Assembly (NCBI GenBank): GCA_025786725.1
Contig: JAHLTZ010000003.1
Coordinates: 620,001-684,000, forward strand
DNA: 64,000 nt
Direction: 5' to 3'
Source: Syncephalis fuscata
Lineage: Eukaryota > Zoopagomycota > Zoopagomycetes > Zoopagales > Piptocephalidaceae
Below the pieces are notes generated by a model. The model saw only the letters and a list, made by a program, of their open reading frames with translations. It searched no databases and was not told the origin of the DNA. The translations under genes and the position numbers were made by a program. Below are positions 23,874-27,348 of this stretch, piece after piece (position 1 is the first letter of the stretch; each line of letters begins with the position of its first letter).

Positions 23874-25839
23874 ATGGATTTTGAAAAGATTAAACAACTC
23901 CTTGGAAGAGCGCCTCGTATCGTCCAAGGTAAGCTCATCCCAACAGCAATATACACATCTCTGCGCCTATTATGACATCTGCAAGGCGTCAAAAAGAGAA
24001 CTATGAGCTGTTTTGTGTCTCACGTCTTTCTATCTGTCATTGCTGTCAGGCTGGCGCATGAGTCTACGTGGCTCTTGTCACCCTTTATATCTCTTACTCG
24101 CTTTCTTTTTCTCGACGTCTTCGTTCTTACTCTAGCACTACCTGACCTCACCGTTGCCTGTAACCTTGTTCCTTTCTTTCTATTGCAGATCAAGATCAGC
24201 CAGTCTCAGCAGCACCTGAAGTGATGTCGGCCGTCTGGGTCAAGCTCCTTCAAGGTTCACCAAACAGTTCACGCTTTACGGAGCTGGGCATTGATAAAAT
24301 CACGAATCTCAATCAAAGCAATGATATTGCCGACCTTCGTAAAACACTTATCACCGATGTTGCTTTCAGAAACGAGCTTCAAGGTATTGATTCGTCCAAA
24401 CTCCAAGTCTACAACAACGACGAAGATGCTACCAACCAGAGAGAGCCTATTGAAGAAGATACTCCACTCTCAGAGCTTATTGAGACCGGGAAGGGCGGTA
24501 GGAAGAAGACTGCTTTGATTGTTGTAGCGCCACCCAAGCCTGGTAAGTAGCTTTGCTTTAAAGACCAGCAGTCAATACGGCTCCTTCCTCTGCCGTTCGT
24601 CCTTGCTTTACGTCTATGTAGTACTAATATTGTTTTTTTTCTGCCATTTCCAATGCATAGATGACGTCCATCCCGAAATCACAGCATTACGCAAACAGTT
24701 GTCCGACATCTCTAATTCGTCTATTAGTAAGTGAATACGTGACAGTGTGCTGCGTCAACGTCTTTGTTCACGTTCACTCATGCTGACATTATTTTTACAT
24801 TTTCATAGATGTTGGAATTGTCGTCAAGCCGGCCAAGAATGTCGTGTGCAGGTGGTCTACCGTAATAAATACGGCGACTATAGACGACTTGAAGAAAATC
24901 CTTCTTCACTATTTTCCTCAGTACAATCACAACGATTATCTGGAGTTACTTTTCTACAGAACATACACCGATAAGCCTGAAGCCATAAGCGATGACGAGG
25001 ACCTGCGCAGAATACTCAAGGTTGTCAAGACACAATCCATGACCAAGCTGATCATTTCACTAGGTACTCCAGCCAAGTCTTTTTCGACATGGACATTCAA
25101 AGATGTTATTTCTGAATATAAGTTCTCAGGATCAGCTAATGAGGGTATTTATATGTTTCCGCCGTTTACCGATATCCAAGCTGCACCGCTAAACTCTGAT
25201 CTTGAGAAGATGATGCTGGATCAGCTTATCAATGAGGTCAGATTAAGGATAAAAGTTTTAAAACTGTTTACCACAAACGAGGCAACAAGGTCGATAGTAG
25301 TCGCTTCATTTTTGGTTGCAGCGACAAATCTATTCGAAAAAGACTTGTACCTTGCATCCCAGCGAGACATTAGCGGACGCCGAGGAAATGGACCATTGGA
25401 CTTTTCGGTGCATTCGCAGAAGACACACTCTTACACTCTTGGCGTGACAGAGGTGAAGAAGGAGGATTTTCTACAAGGCGTGGCTCAGAACATTGTGCAG
25501 CTGGAATCGGCCTTAACAGAAAAGAAACGCAAGCGCGAGTTGCATGATGTTGGTGGAGAGAAAGAGTTGCCGATAAAGACGAAGTCTTACGGGATTGTTA
25601 CGGACGCAAGCGATTGGCTGTTGACTGAATGTACGCTGAATGAAGACGAAACAGTGTCGTACAGGATGACGCACCTTAAGCGGGCTATTGTATTCAATGA
25701 TAATTGGCAGGATGGTGCGAAATTTATTTTTGAAAGGCTTGTGTGGCTTTGGTCACGCATGCGGGATGAGATACCAGCACGCGAACGCTACTACAGTCAA
25801 ACGAATTTTTTATCCTACCGCAAGAGACCCGCTTTGTGA
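23874..25839 (+). CDS. Crinkler (CRN)-type protein with PD-(D/E)XK nuclease-like C-terminal domain
   Basis: Exons 23874-23928, 24189-24542, 24661-24726 and 24809-25839 sum to 1506 nt (501 aa). Residues 34-137 (VWVKLLQGSP ... LQVYNNDED ... TALIVVAPPKPG) match the ubiquitin-like Crinkler header domain. A second ubiquitin/PB1-like segment (about 160-250) precedes a C-terminal domain with GNGPLDF (Asp356), VTEVKK (Glu373, Lys375) and a downstream Gln385, the pattern of restriction-nuclease-fold domains found on Crinklers. There is no secretion signal at the start, which is common outside oomycetes. Introns are longer (260, 118, 82 nt) and the exons richer in G+C than in neighbouring genes. Known Crinklers act in host cells or in conflict between organisms; the role here is inference. 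Confidence 0.82.
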
Positions 25840-26392
25840 TCGTTCACTGCTGCAACAAATCGCGCTTACACCACATCTATTACATTTCACCTGCACATCA
25901 CACTGCAACAGATTGCGCTTTTAACACATCTACCACGTCTCCACTACGCTACCTGCAAATTAACATGTATAAAATACCTTGCAAATAAAAATTCATTGCT
26001 CTAAGCTGTGTCTCGCACATTCTGTTCCATTCCGTATTGTATTTATTTACCGTCAACTTCAAGTTGCTCAGCATATTTGTTTATCAAACAAGTTATAACA
26101 ACAGGCCTTTTGTATTTTATTCTAATATTACTCTATTTTTATAATGTTTCAAAACACCATCTGGACTTGTTCTATTGATTCACGTTGTATTCTAACAATA
26201 CAATCAATACAATAAACGTTCTGTTGATACTACAACATAATCATAGGTTTAAATAGAGCACAGAATATGCATAAATAGTCAGCGATATTACCATCACACT
26301 CTAATCTTCAGCAAATAAGCATTTTCACCTACTCTATATCAATTCTATTTCACTATTCATTTTACTTTTCTGTTTTAACAAACAATATCACC
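25840..26392. promoter_or_regulatory. Intergenic region with the promoter of the microexon peptide gene
   Basis: Holds the Crinkler 3' end and the upstream region of the small secreted-peptide gene. A TATA-like cataaata lies at about 26270, followed by a CT-rich leader that ends in atatcaccATG. No other gene seen. Confidence 0.5.
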
Positions 26393-27348
26393 ATGCGACT
26401 TTTTATTGCCATCTTCTGCGTTCTTTTTGTGGCTTTTGTGGCTAATACAAACATAGTAGATGCTACTCCAACTCTAACCCGGCGTGGTACGTTACAATTA
26501 CAATATATTTTATAGAGCTATGCTTATAGTATATAATTAACCAATGATGTTGTTAGGCGGTAAGTCGCAACTATGTAGCGTCGGTTATATGTTAACTGGC
26601 GATTCAATTAAACATTGCTTTTTATTAAACTAAAACTAATAGAAAGTAAGTACCATGCTCCATTAATTACATATACACTAATTTCATATTGCCTCTATGT
26701 ATCAATAATTTACTATTACCAGAACGTAAGTAGTATTGCATATTGGTTGTTTATCCTCTAATCACAAACTATGTATCGTATTCATTAACAATTTAATGTT
26801 AAAAGGCTGTAAGTAATACTGTATATTAGTTGACCACGTATTAAATAAATCCTATATGATATTTGTATTAAAAACTTAATATAATAGGTCGTAAGTTGTA
26901 TTGTATATTAATTAGCTACGCACTAATTGCATATTGTACACTTTGTGCATTAATAATTTAATATGGATAGCTTGTAAGTGGTATTGCATACTGATTAAAT
27001 ATGTGCTAATTACAATTTGTTTATTATGCATATTGGCAAATTAACATTGATAGATAGTAAGTGATATTGCATGTATATTATTCGTGTCAATAATTTAATG
27101 TTAATAGTTAGTAAGTTGTATTATATGTCAACTAGCTATGTACTAATTATATGATATGTATTTTGTTTATTGACAAATTGATTTGATAGATTGTAAGTGT
27201 TTTTACATGGAAATTAATTATTTACTAAATATATACTCACTATTTGCATCAAAAACTTAATATTAATAGGTTGTAAGTAGAATTACATATTATTGTTTTA
27301 TGAATTAATTATATGTCATTTGCTATGTGTATATATATAAACATAGAA
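26393..27348 (+). CDS. Secreted micropeptide encoded by a signal-peptide exon plus ten consecutive 3-nt microexons
   Basis: Exon 1 (26393-26486) starts at an ATG with good context and encodes MRLFIAIFCVLFVAFVANTN..., a clear signal peptide, ending ...TLTRR plus one base before GTACGT. Ten sites of the form AG-NNN-GTAAGT then follow, with 3-nt exons at 26557, 26643, 26723, 26816, 26888, 26971, 27054, 27108, 27190 and 27270. Introns are 51-90 nt. All keep phase 1, so each exon adds one residue: G-E-K-R-C-P-Y-I-N-C. The last acceptor (27346) supplies AA to the leftover T and creates the TAA stop, giving 41 aa. TRR and KR are Kex2-type processing sites, leaving a possible CPYINC or GEKRCPYINC peptide with a Cys pair. 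No known family recognised. The regular splice signals are seen directly; inclusion of every exon is inferred. Confidence 0.8.
26557..27346 (+). repeat. Tandem array of about 80-bp intron-plus-microexon units
   Basis: The ten intervals between microexons resemble each other. Most begin GTAAGT followed by a tattgcatat-like element, carry a tactaattgcatat-like middle and end in a taatttaatgttaatag-like 3' site. Start-to-start spacing is 86, 80, 93, 72, 83, 83, 54, 82 and 80 nt. The seventh-to-eighth unit is shortened. This points to growth by tandem duplication. Confidence 0.75.

Follow-up and report, generated by a model that had tools for sequence, protein, structure and literature searches.

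Can a fungal gene be assembled from one signal peptide exon and a chain of exons of only 3 nt? This question was raised by a locus on the + strand of the analyzed DNA, a 64,000-nt stretch of the Syncephalis fuscata genome (Zoopagales, Zoopagomycota) called here the window, for which an initial annotation had proposed such a structure. The analyses described below make it very probable that this locus is one short member of a large S. fuscata family of secreted peptides, in which nearly every codon of the mature part would be interrupted by an intron.

Structure of the locus in the window

The motif AG-NNN-GTAAGT occurs ten times in series on the + strand from 26555 to 27278, in constant phase after the signal peptide exon. 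The whole window contains 13 such motifs on the two strands, ten of which form the series, compared with a mean of 1.84 and a maximum of 5 in 100 dinucleotide-preserving shuffles, so the array was rightly regarded as nonaccidental. The regular series of units is real, though their spacing ranges from 54 to 86 nt and not from 54 to 93 nt as first reported. The gene model (26393–27348) comprises a 94-nt exon 1, ten 3-nt exons, a terminal exon, and eleven introns of 51–83 nt:

26248..26256, + strand, TATA-like TTTAAATAG, 145 bp upstream of the ATG, read directly, with a presumed role
26393..26486, + strand, exon 1, 94 nt, signal peptide MRLFIAIFCVLFVAFVANTNIVDATPTLTRR and first base of codon 32
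26487..26556, + strand, intron 1, 70 nt, donor GTACGT, phase 1
26557..26559, + strand, predicted microexon 1, GCG
26643..26645, + strand, predicted microexon 2, AAA
26723..26725, + strand, predicted microexon 3, AAC
26806..26808, + strand, predicted microexon 4, GCT
26888..26890, + strand, predicted microexon 5, GTC
26971..26973, + strand, predicted microexon 6, CTT
27054..27056, + strand, predicted microexon 7, ATA
27108..27110, + strand, predicted microexon 8, TTA, preceded by the shortest intron (51 nt)
27190..27192, + strand, predicted microexon 9, ATT
27270..27272, + strand, predicted microexon 10, GTT, the last T being the first base of the stop codon
27347..27503, + strand, start of the terminal exon (AATAAC...) and 3′ untranslated region, stop codon completed at 27347–27348

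Exon 1 contains 31 codons and one base and ends at a dibasic RR, and the terminal acceptor reads ...ACATAG/AATAAC. The predicted precursor has 41 residues, MRLFIAIFCVLFVAFVANTNIVDATPTLTRR-GEKRCPYINC, with RR-GEKRCPYINC at its end, and its stop codon (T/AA) would be created by the last splice; the coordinates, the length of the product, and the origin of the stop codon had all been given correctly. The term “single-codon” exon needs correction. Since exon 1 ends in phase 1, every intron of the mature part lies inside a codon, and each 3-nt exon completes one codon with two bases and opens the following codon with its third. The array introns are of the GT-AG type with GTAAGT donors, and they resemble in size those of an ordinary gene of this genome (one gene, the mitochondrial carrier gene of the window, whose first intron was placed by tblastn and further short ones by eye).

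The TTTAAATAG motif is also present upstream of another family member, L010, and the upstream region of the window gene is homologous to that of the intronless paralogs L063, L064, and L065. On the other side, homology to the intronless paralogs begins 15–26 bases inside the terminal exon, and the segment 27362–27503 shows 67–72% identity with four of the five paralogs compared in their 3′ regions. Two near-identical copies with the same ten units (L043 and L044) are located elsewhere in the genome. About 550 bp upstream of the gene, a 331-codon open frame (24844–25839, + strand) was found that has no Pfam match.

Predicted microexon genes across the S. fuscata genome

When AG-NNN-GTAAGT followed by another unit 58–75 nt farther on was searched for genome-wide, 2,889 occurrences (1233 + 1656) were found compared with 1 + 3 in the reversed controls. 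A pattern for the dibasic end of exon 1 plus its donor gave 134 matches (13 in controls), and the terminal exon pattern AKAGAATAAYYGRTR gave 21 (3 in controls). Homologs of exon 1 were scored at 150 places among 263 candidates in the genome, intronless members included; as gene numbers these are approximate, because small contigs carry some of the copies, which may represent second haplotypes.

The long members contain 27–56 exons of the 3-nt type each. In the dynamic-programming model L059 has 39 microexons and encodes ANEEKCTAYYEKYCVFCKPEDKKSYIDDCIARCNQNRCPK up to a stop codon, while L010 and L090 have 34 and 32 microexons, one of 6 nt in each, and encode GVAECKTCLSHCTRGGDTRKYCKIHCSHNYFPAQC and GAPKRANPFCPCGVTFGNCPPPSGPPCQVCAPC, respectively, again up to a stop codon. 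L062, modelled without its end, has 27 microexons (DCDDCKKRCRPWASSYLKCVTYCDKQC), and the residues KHQHWW were excluded from its exon-coded part because of a weak acceptor. The longest gene sampled, L058, continues beyond the fetched end. It has 56 modelled exons after exon 1, one of 15 nt and 55 of 3 nt, codes for VGTPEQEQKLQSFATQLQQEIDSFRPSCSEDIQKLYDQADKLHDELLVKLNKFLNEYIKQ, and would need at least 57 introns to encode its first 60 mature residues; the residues GKLYCI, read past the last sure exon (another unit follows), were excluded from the exon-coded part.

Modelling of 11 genes by unpenalized dynamic programming, which for L059 and L090 gives a result different from that of the penalized model, showed that 306 of 315 exons are exactly 3 nt long and 311 are multiples of 3; the exceptions measured 6, 6, 9, 9, and 15 nt, and four had odd lengths (2, 10, 20, and 20). 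Within the arrays, the acceptor-like WWAWYAG is followed by GTAAGT at no more than 45 nt in 211 cases, near-copies included; the two are 3 nt apart in 208 of these and 6, 6, and 15 nt apart in the others. In 16 gene models, introns account for 87–94% and 309 of 380 microexon donors are GTAAGT, a sequence that the model favours.

Exon 1 of the modelled members begins with M and has a hydrophobic core and, except in L057 (GR), a dibasic end, RR. The signal peptide was called from these features, and the regularity is partly a matter of construction, exon 1 having been found by similarity. A second dibasic site, KR, was found in the window gene, L047, L048, L049, and L090. Some of the latter four keep one exon of 6 or 15 nt carrying this KR before the 3-nt series, which is perhaps an older exon structure.

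Several loci, for example L047, L054, L060, and L088, contain exons other than 3 nt or look damaged: L088 can be modelled only with a 2-nt exon, and in L047 a donor is changed and the terminal exon was evidently modelled wrongly. No gene could be modelled at L087 and L091. An array intron of L048 is lengthened by a foreign-looking insert, GAAAAGCTTGTGAGCCCCCGCTGCACA..., likely a mobile element, which is absent from the window; the models of L009 and L060 break off in what appears to be the same insert. Two pairs of closely related microexon genes lie in opposite orientation on one contig (C1), L009/L010 (475k and 534k) about 59 kb apart and L011/L012 (576k and 609k) about 33 kb apart.

Stop codons and cysteines depend on the order of joining

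The reading order was analyzed first in 16 modelled genes with 343 exons of 3 nt, which were chosen after the models had been seen and from which near-copies and genes with odd exons or uncertain ends (e.g., L009, L039, L053, L054, L056, L060, and L088) were left out. At the three reading offsets 4, 32, and 0 stop codons were counted, the third offset being free of stops in 327 codons. Shuffling of the units would predict 16.7 ± 3.2 stops at this offset, and none of 5000 shuffles was as low as the observed value. The same offset yielded 34 cysteines, while 17.9 ± 3.1 were obtained after shuffling, and again none of the 5000 reached the observed number.

A second, model-free test was based on 277 strict units in 32 runs, each with four or more of them, left after 13 of 45 runs had been dropped as near-copies and selected without reference to the peptide. 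The consecutive joins contained no stop codon in 245 cases versus 9.3 ± 2.3 in shuffled arrays (0 of 3000 shuffles were as low), and the joined units gave 25 cysteines versus 15.9 ± 2.9, the largest value in any shuffle being 27. The lack of stops at consecutive joins shows that selection has acted on a message joining each unit to the next.

The picture at other junctions bears on whether microexons are alternatively skipped so that each gene gives a library of peptides, as had been suggested in the initial annotation. Removal of any number of 3-nt exons keeps the frame, single skips (unit i to i + 2) make a stop in only 12 of 311 junctions of the 16 models, and with dozens of introns some erroneous skipping would be likely. 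However, the 12 stops are not clearly fewer than the 15.9 ± 3.0 expected (266 of 2000 shuffles were as low), and the model-free every-second joins gave 9 of 213 versus 8.2. At the i + 3 junctions 17 of 295 versus 15.2 were found in the models and 10 of 181 versus 7.1 in the model-free set, so in both tests selection on skipped forms was not seen at these two junction types. The visible selection is thus limited to the fully joined message, and random skips would also break the cysteine spacing. A skipping-based library is accordingly rather unlikely, and we prefer the joining of all units in order.

Intronless paralogs share the flanks of the microexon genes

Using the annotated S. fuscata protein P0122 as a query, family members were found in which the mature domain lies in one open frame. 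Sixteen of 25 candidate intronless loci have a single open frame of at least 64 aa with the family signal peptide and the dibasic site (among them L063 and L064, which encode the same protein); the remaining nine failed the regular expression. Contiguous mature domains were seen in L063–L066, L068–L073, L075, L081, L084, L085, L024, L034, L046, and L094. Many of the intronless members, which occur in one genome together with the microexon members, are cysteine-rich with C-x2-C-x3-C.

In a first comparison of four microexon genes with five intronless loci, the array itself had no match. The 5′ region of L010 aligned with the five loci over 246–612 bases (L063 being shortened by the fetched stretch) up to the end of exon 1, where these queries stopped by construction, and the boundary was retested with longer queries that kept 300 bases of the array, using 16 microexon genes and 17 intronless loci (the 16 and L046). 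Exon 1 homology was found in 271 of 272 pairs. In 225 pairs it ended within 3 bases of the exon 1 end, while in 24 it extended 4–13 bases farther and in 22 it stopped short of that point. The 3′ boundary was examined in 12 of the 16 genes (204 pairs), and 103 pairs gave a match. In 17 pairs the match started at −1 to +2 relative to the predicted terminal exon (L010, 9 of 16; L051, 3 of 10; L090, 4 of 7; L089, 1 of 1), in 61 it began deeper in this exon, and in 25 it began upstream of the exon by more than one base. These early starts belonged to L047 (16), L049 (7), and L010 (2), the terminal exon of L047 and L049 being mis-modelled or altered. L010 and L024 are 86% identical over 915 alignment columns from the first base of the terminal exon, and L010 aligned with four of the intronless loci over 380–900 bases from the terminal exon on. 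The idea that the intronless paralogs are retroposed copies is disfavoured, as they have both flanks in common with the microexon genes and are distinguished from them by the array and the residues it encodes, which argues against retrocopies inserted elsewhere. A search for intronless counterparts of the mature parts that spliced L058 and L059 would encode yielded none; the L058 query ended in six residues of intron read-through.

The spliced product of L062 has the cysteine framework C2C3C9C3C3C, which is that of the intronless L070 (ECEECLNICFSQLNSSLHCYSSCRPKC), and none of 200000 unit shuffles reproduced it. This exact framework occurs in one microexon gene; L010 matches its first four spacings (2, 3, 9, and 3), and the others differ. 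Similarly, spliced L049 reads RR-AVAPLAKR-A and the intronless L094, which encodes P0132 in one open frame, reads RR-AVEPLAKR-A. In the exon 1 tree, L062 is located inside a group of otherwise intronless genes (support 100/98). The 37-row tree, with 19 of its 32 inner branches open, needs seven changes between the microexon and intronless states, of which at least two are forced by well-supported branches.

These data also bear on two other readings of the arrays. The first takes the array for a satellite or tandem repeat of 80-bp units that lies within a single long intron, with exon 1 spliced straight to the terminal exon and AG-NNN-GTAAGT being a mere repeat motif with a variable core. Direct joining of exon 1 to the terminal exon would indeed be in frame, and intron cores are more alike within a gene (mean identity 0.64–0.67) than between genes (0.60) or in shuffled sequence (0.52). 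A satellite, however, would hardly explain why the 3-nt cores are stop-free only when joined consecutively in the phase of exon 1, joins at lags 2 and 3 being ordinary, why the message of one gene reproduces every cysteine spacing of an intronless paralog, or why the exon length is so strictly 3 or a multiple of it, and we regard this explanation as extremely improbable. According to the second reading the arrays are relics or pseudogenes, and the intronless paralogs are the working genes. The 16 intronless loci with a single open frame agree with this, as do L047, L048, and L060, in which donors or terminal acceptors are changed or sequence is inserted. Against it stand the 245 stop-free joins, chosen without regard to the peptide, the prevalence of GTAAGT among the donors (even if favoured by the model), and the comparison of the window gene with its two copies, where none of the 30 microexon bases but 17 and 11 intron or splice-region bases differ. 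That the arrays are relics is therefore very unlikely. The proposed gene model, a signal peptide exon followed by ten in-phase 3-nt exons in a fungus, is supported by the family-wide tests, namely the stop-free consecutive joins, the end of homology at the exon 1 donor, and the common cysteine framework.

Growth and change of the arrays

Alignment at the level of units showed that L035 and L062 differ by an indel of eight units, the 51 exon bases compared being unchanged, and it revealed unit and block indels involving several units between L009 and L010. Thirteen nearby unit pairs with intron identity above 0.93 were listed, and the codon is the same in seven (e.g., GAG GAG in L048 with 0.96, and TTC TTC two units apart in L089 with 1.00) and different in six. 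These observations support the view that arrays grow when whole [intron + 3 nt] units are duplicated and shrink when they are deleted, with accompanying codon change.

Repeated insertion of an introner-like mobile element into an intronless gene could also be considered. Introner-like elements insert in many genes across a genome (PMC9860276), families of them are described in fungi (PMC4457414), the introns studied here are related in sequence within and between genes, and the six pairs with different codons fit insertion as well. However, it is implausible that independent insertions would have occurred at 3-nt intervals and always in phase 1, and the seven same-codon pairs and the unit-sized indels point to duplication of [intron + 3 nt]. 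We consider an introner origin unlikely; moreover, it concerns the origin of the arrays alone and says nothing on how the genes work at present. The introns of introner families and those of the S. fuscata arrays are alike in being sequence-related, but the relatedness of the latter was established within one gene family, where they are stacked at 3-nt spacing.

From the first alignment it appeared that microexon codons change faster than introns, but gains and losses of units misalign the copies and the claim was dropped after unit-level alignment. In six recent pairs (out of eight), 5 of 243 microexon bases and 72 of 6453 intron bases are changed, and clear purifying constraint on microexon bases was not seen in these recent copies. 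In the two older pairs, which may still be misaligned, 11 of 30 microexon and 70 of 776 intron bases are changed.

It is possible, although we hold it only tentatively, that the one-intron-per-codon design serves residue-level diversification, with units recombining and loci switching to the intronless state, and provides an arsenal for a mycoparasite. Each unit would then be a module of homologous recombination, by which the length and sequence of the peptide could be altered residue by residue without frameshift. Switching between array and intronless states would probably occur when a locus recombines with cDNA made from its own spliced transcript, a process that would spare the promoter and the 3′ flanks. 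Such a device would give the fungus a quickly changing set of secreted peptides. Syncephalis is treated as a mycoparasite genus (PMC6784888, PMC10386755).

Predicted expression and product

The architecture, reading phase, selection on consecutive joining, homology to the intronless paralogs, and unit indels can be read from the genome itself, and from these we infer transcription and splicing, Kex2 processing, secretion, and use on host fungi. The signal peptide exon, usually with a dibasic end, would be spliced in phase 1 to the series of 3-nt exons, which would all be joined in order, the stop codon coming from the terminal exon. Neighbouring introns are probably never engaged simultaneously, since their 3′ and 5′ splice sites are 3 nt apart and the spliceosome would be sterically hindered. 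After removal of the signal peptide, a Kex2-type protease probably cuts after RR, and in several members a second cut of this type at KR may leave a short peptide, which is cysteine-rich in many members. At the gene level, the [intron + 3 nt] segment of about 80 bp serves at the same time as a unit of duplication and loss, so that residues can be gained or lost without frameshift.

The likely product is thus a Kex2-trimmed, often cysteine-rich secreted peptide used on host fungi. A role at the host interface is suggested by the signal peptide, the dibasic sites, the cysteines, the large and diverse family, its restriction to this species in the searches described below, and the fungus-parasitic life of the species. 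Pfam matches were not found for L058 and L059. Structure prediction of the intronless P0122 from a three-row alignment gave a mean pLDDT of 59.7 and a pTM of 0.33, values too low for interpretation. Two profile searches, whose reach was set by shared 5-residue words and by annotated proteins (unannotated microexon genes being invisible to them), returned S. fuscata proteins only and no relatives from other species.

In other fungi, secreted peptides are described as being released outside the cell as short products of precursors cut by KEX2 (PMC6339444). The S. fuscata family fits this scheme with its dibasic site after the signal peptide, where cleavage is presumed. The fungal KEX2 precursors carry repeated peptide motifs, whereas the S. 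fuscata precursors contain mostly one peptide and have an odd exon structure.

Comparison with known microexon genes

The initial annotation had compared the locus with the schistosome micro-exon genes (MEGs) and the bicycle genes of aphids, and this is fair as an analogy. In both the MEGs and the S. fuscata family the signal peptide is in the first coding exon and many small symmetrical exons follow. MEG exons vary in size and are larger than 3 nt. The S. fuscata genes differ in their long series of 3-nt exons, in introns that are related repeats, and in having intronless paralogs with similar flanks, and the likeness is one of architecture. The MEGs are described as encoding secreted proteins with a signal peptide, mostly tiny symmetrical exons, and a fast-evolving mature part, acting at the parasite–host interface, and are reported as restricted to platyhelminths (PMC4350168).

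The bicycle genes are presented as a large family of putative secreted effectors that evolves fast and whose numerous, unusually small internal exons nearly all start at codon position 2; they have about 17 exons on average, and the related megacycle gene has more than 100 microexons for about 2000 residues (PMC9168663). An exon-per-residue array is not described in the available text of that report (PMC9168663). The phase is the same in the S. fuscata family, where exon 1 ends in phase 1 and the 3-nt exons keep it, but the megacycle gene codes for many residues per exon, and here too the likeness is one of architecture. Bicycle proteins have the CYC cysteine pattern.

Even smaller exons are documented in plants, where the 1-nt exons of APC11 and VPS55 were confirmed by RNA-seq and RT-PCR; VPS55 has strong GTRAGT donors, and intronless copies of APC11 were explained by reverse transcriptase-mediated loss (PMC8831610). 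These plant microexons occur singly or in small numbers in ordinary genes, whereas in S. fuscata the whole mature protein would be built from microexons. A single regulated microexon is reported in Trichoderma (PMC11121469). Among the matches listed in searches of open-licence papers, none described a chain of 3-nt exons, a fungal gene of this kind, or the gene structure of Syncephalis. The design seems more extreme than any that we found described, in that nearly every mature residue would need its own 3-nt exon. We found no known kind of gene in which a protein is encoded with one residue per exon, though the architecture can also be read as the limiting case of micro-exon genes. If transcripts confirm the splicing, these would be, to our knowledge, the most intron-dense protein-coding genes, as judged from L058 and from the intron share of the 16 models.

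If the model is true, the family probes the lower size limit of exons that can be spliced repeatedly in succession. It also bears on the importance of strong GTAAGT donors next to exon bases that may vary freely, and on whether introns have to be removed in a set order. The intronless paralogs, whose flanks are homologous and whose mature domains are in part similar, offer a natural paired experiment on what introns do.

Annotation of the family

A large effector-like repertoire may have been missed by annotation in S. fuscata and in other fungi, because gene finders and aligners appear to handle tiny exons poorly (PMC8831610, PMC7821500). Fourteen proteins of the family were found in the NCBI annotation, and microexon use was seen in none of the five that were examined for it: P0122, P0125, P0127, and P0132 each lie in one open frame, and P0124 appears to read through an intron. 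Where an annotation reads into intron 1, the true mature peptide would be missing from the protein databases. The annotated P0124, P0129, and P0121 seem to read into intron 1; P0124, for instance, has a tail that looks like the translation of an array intron.
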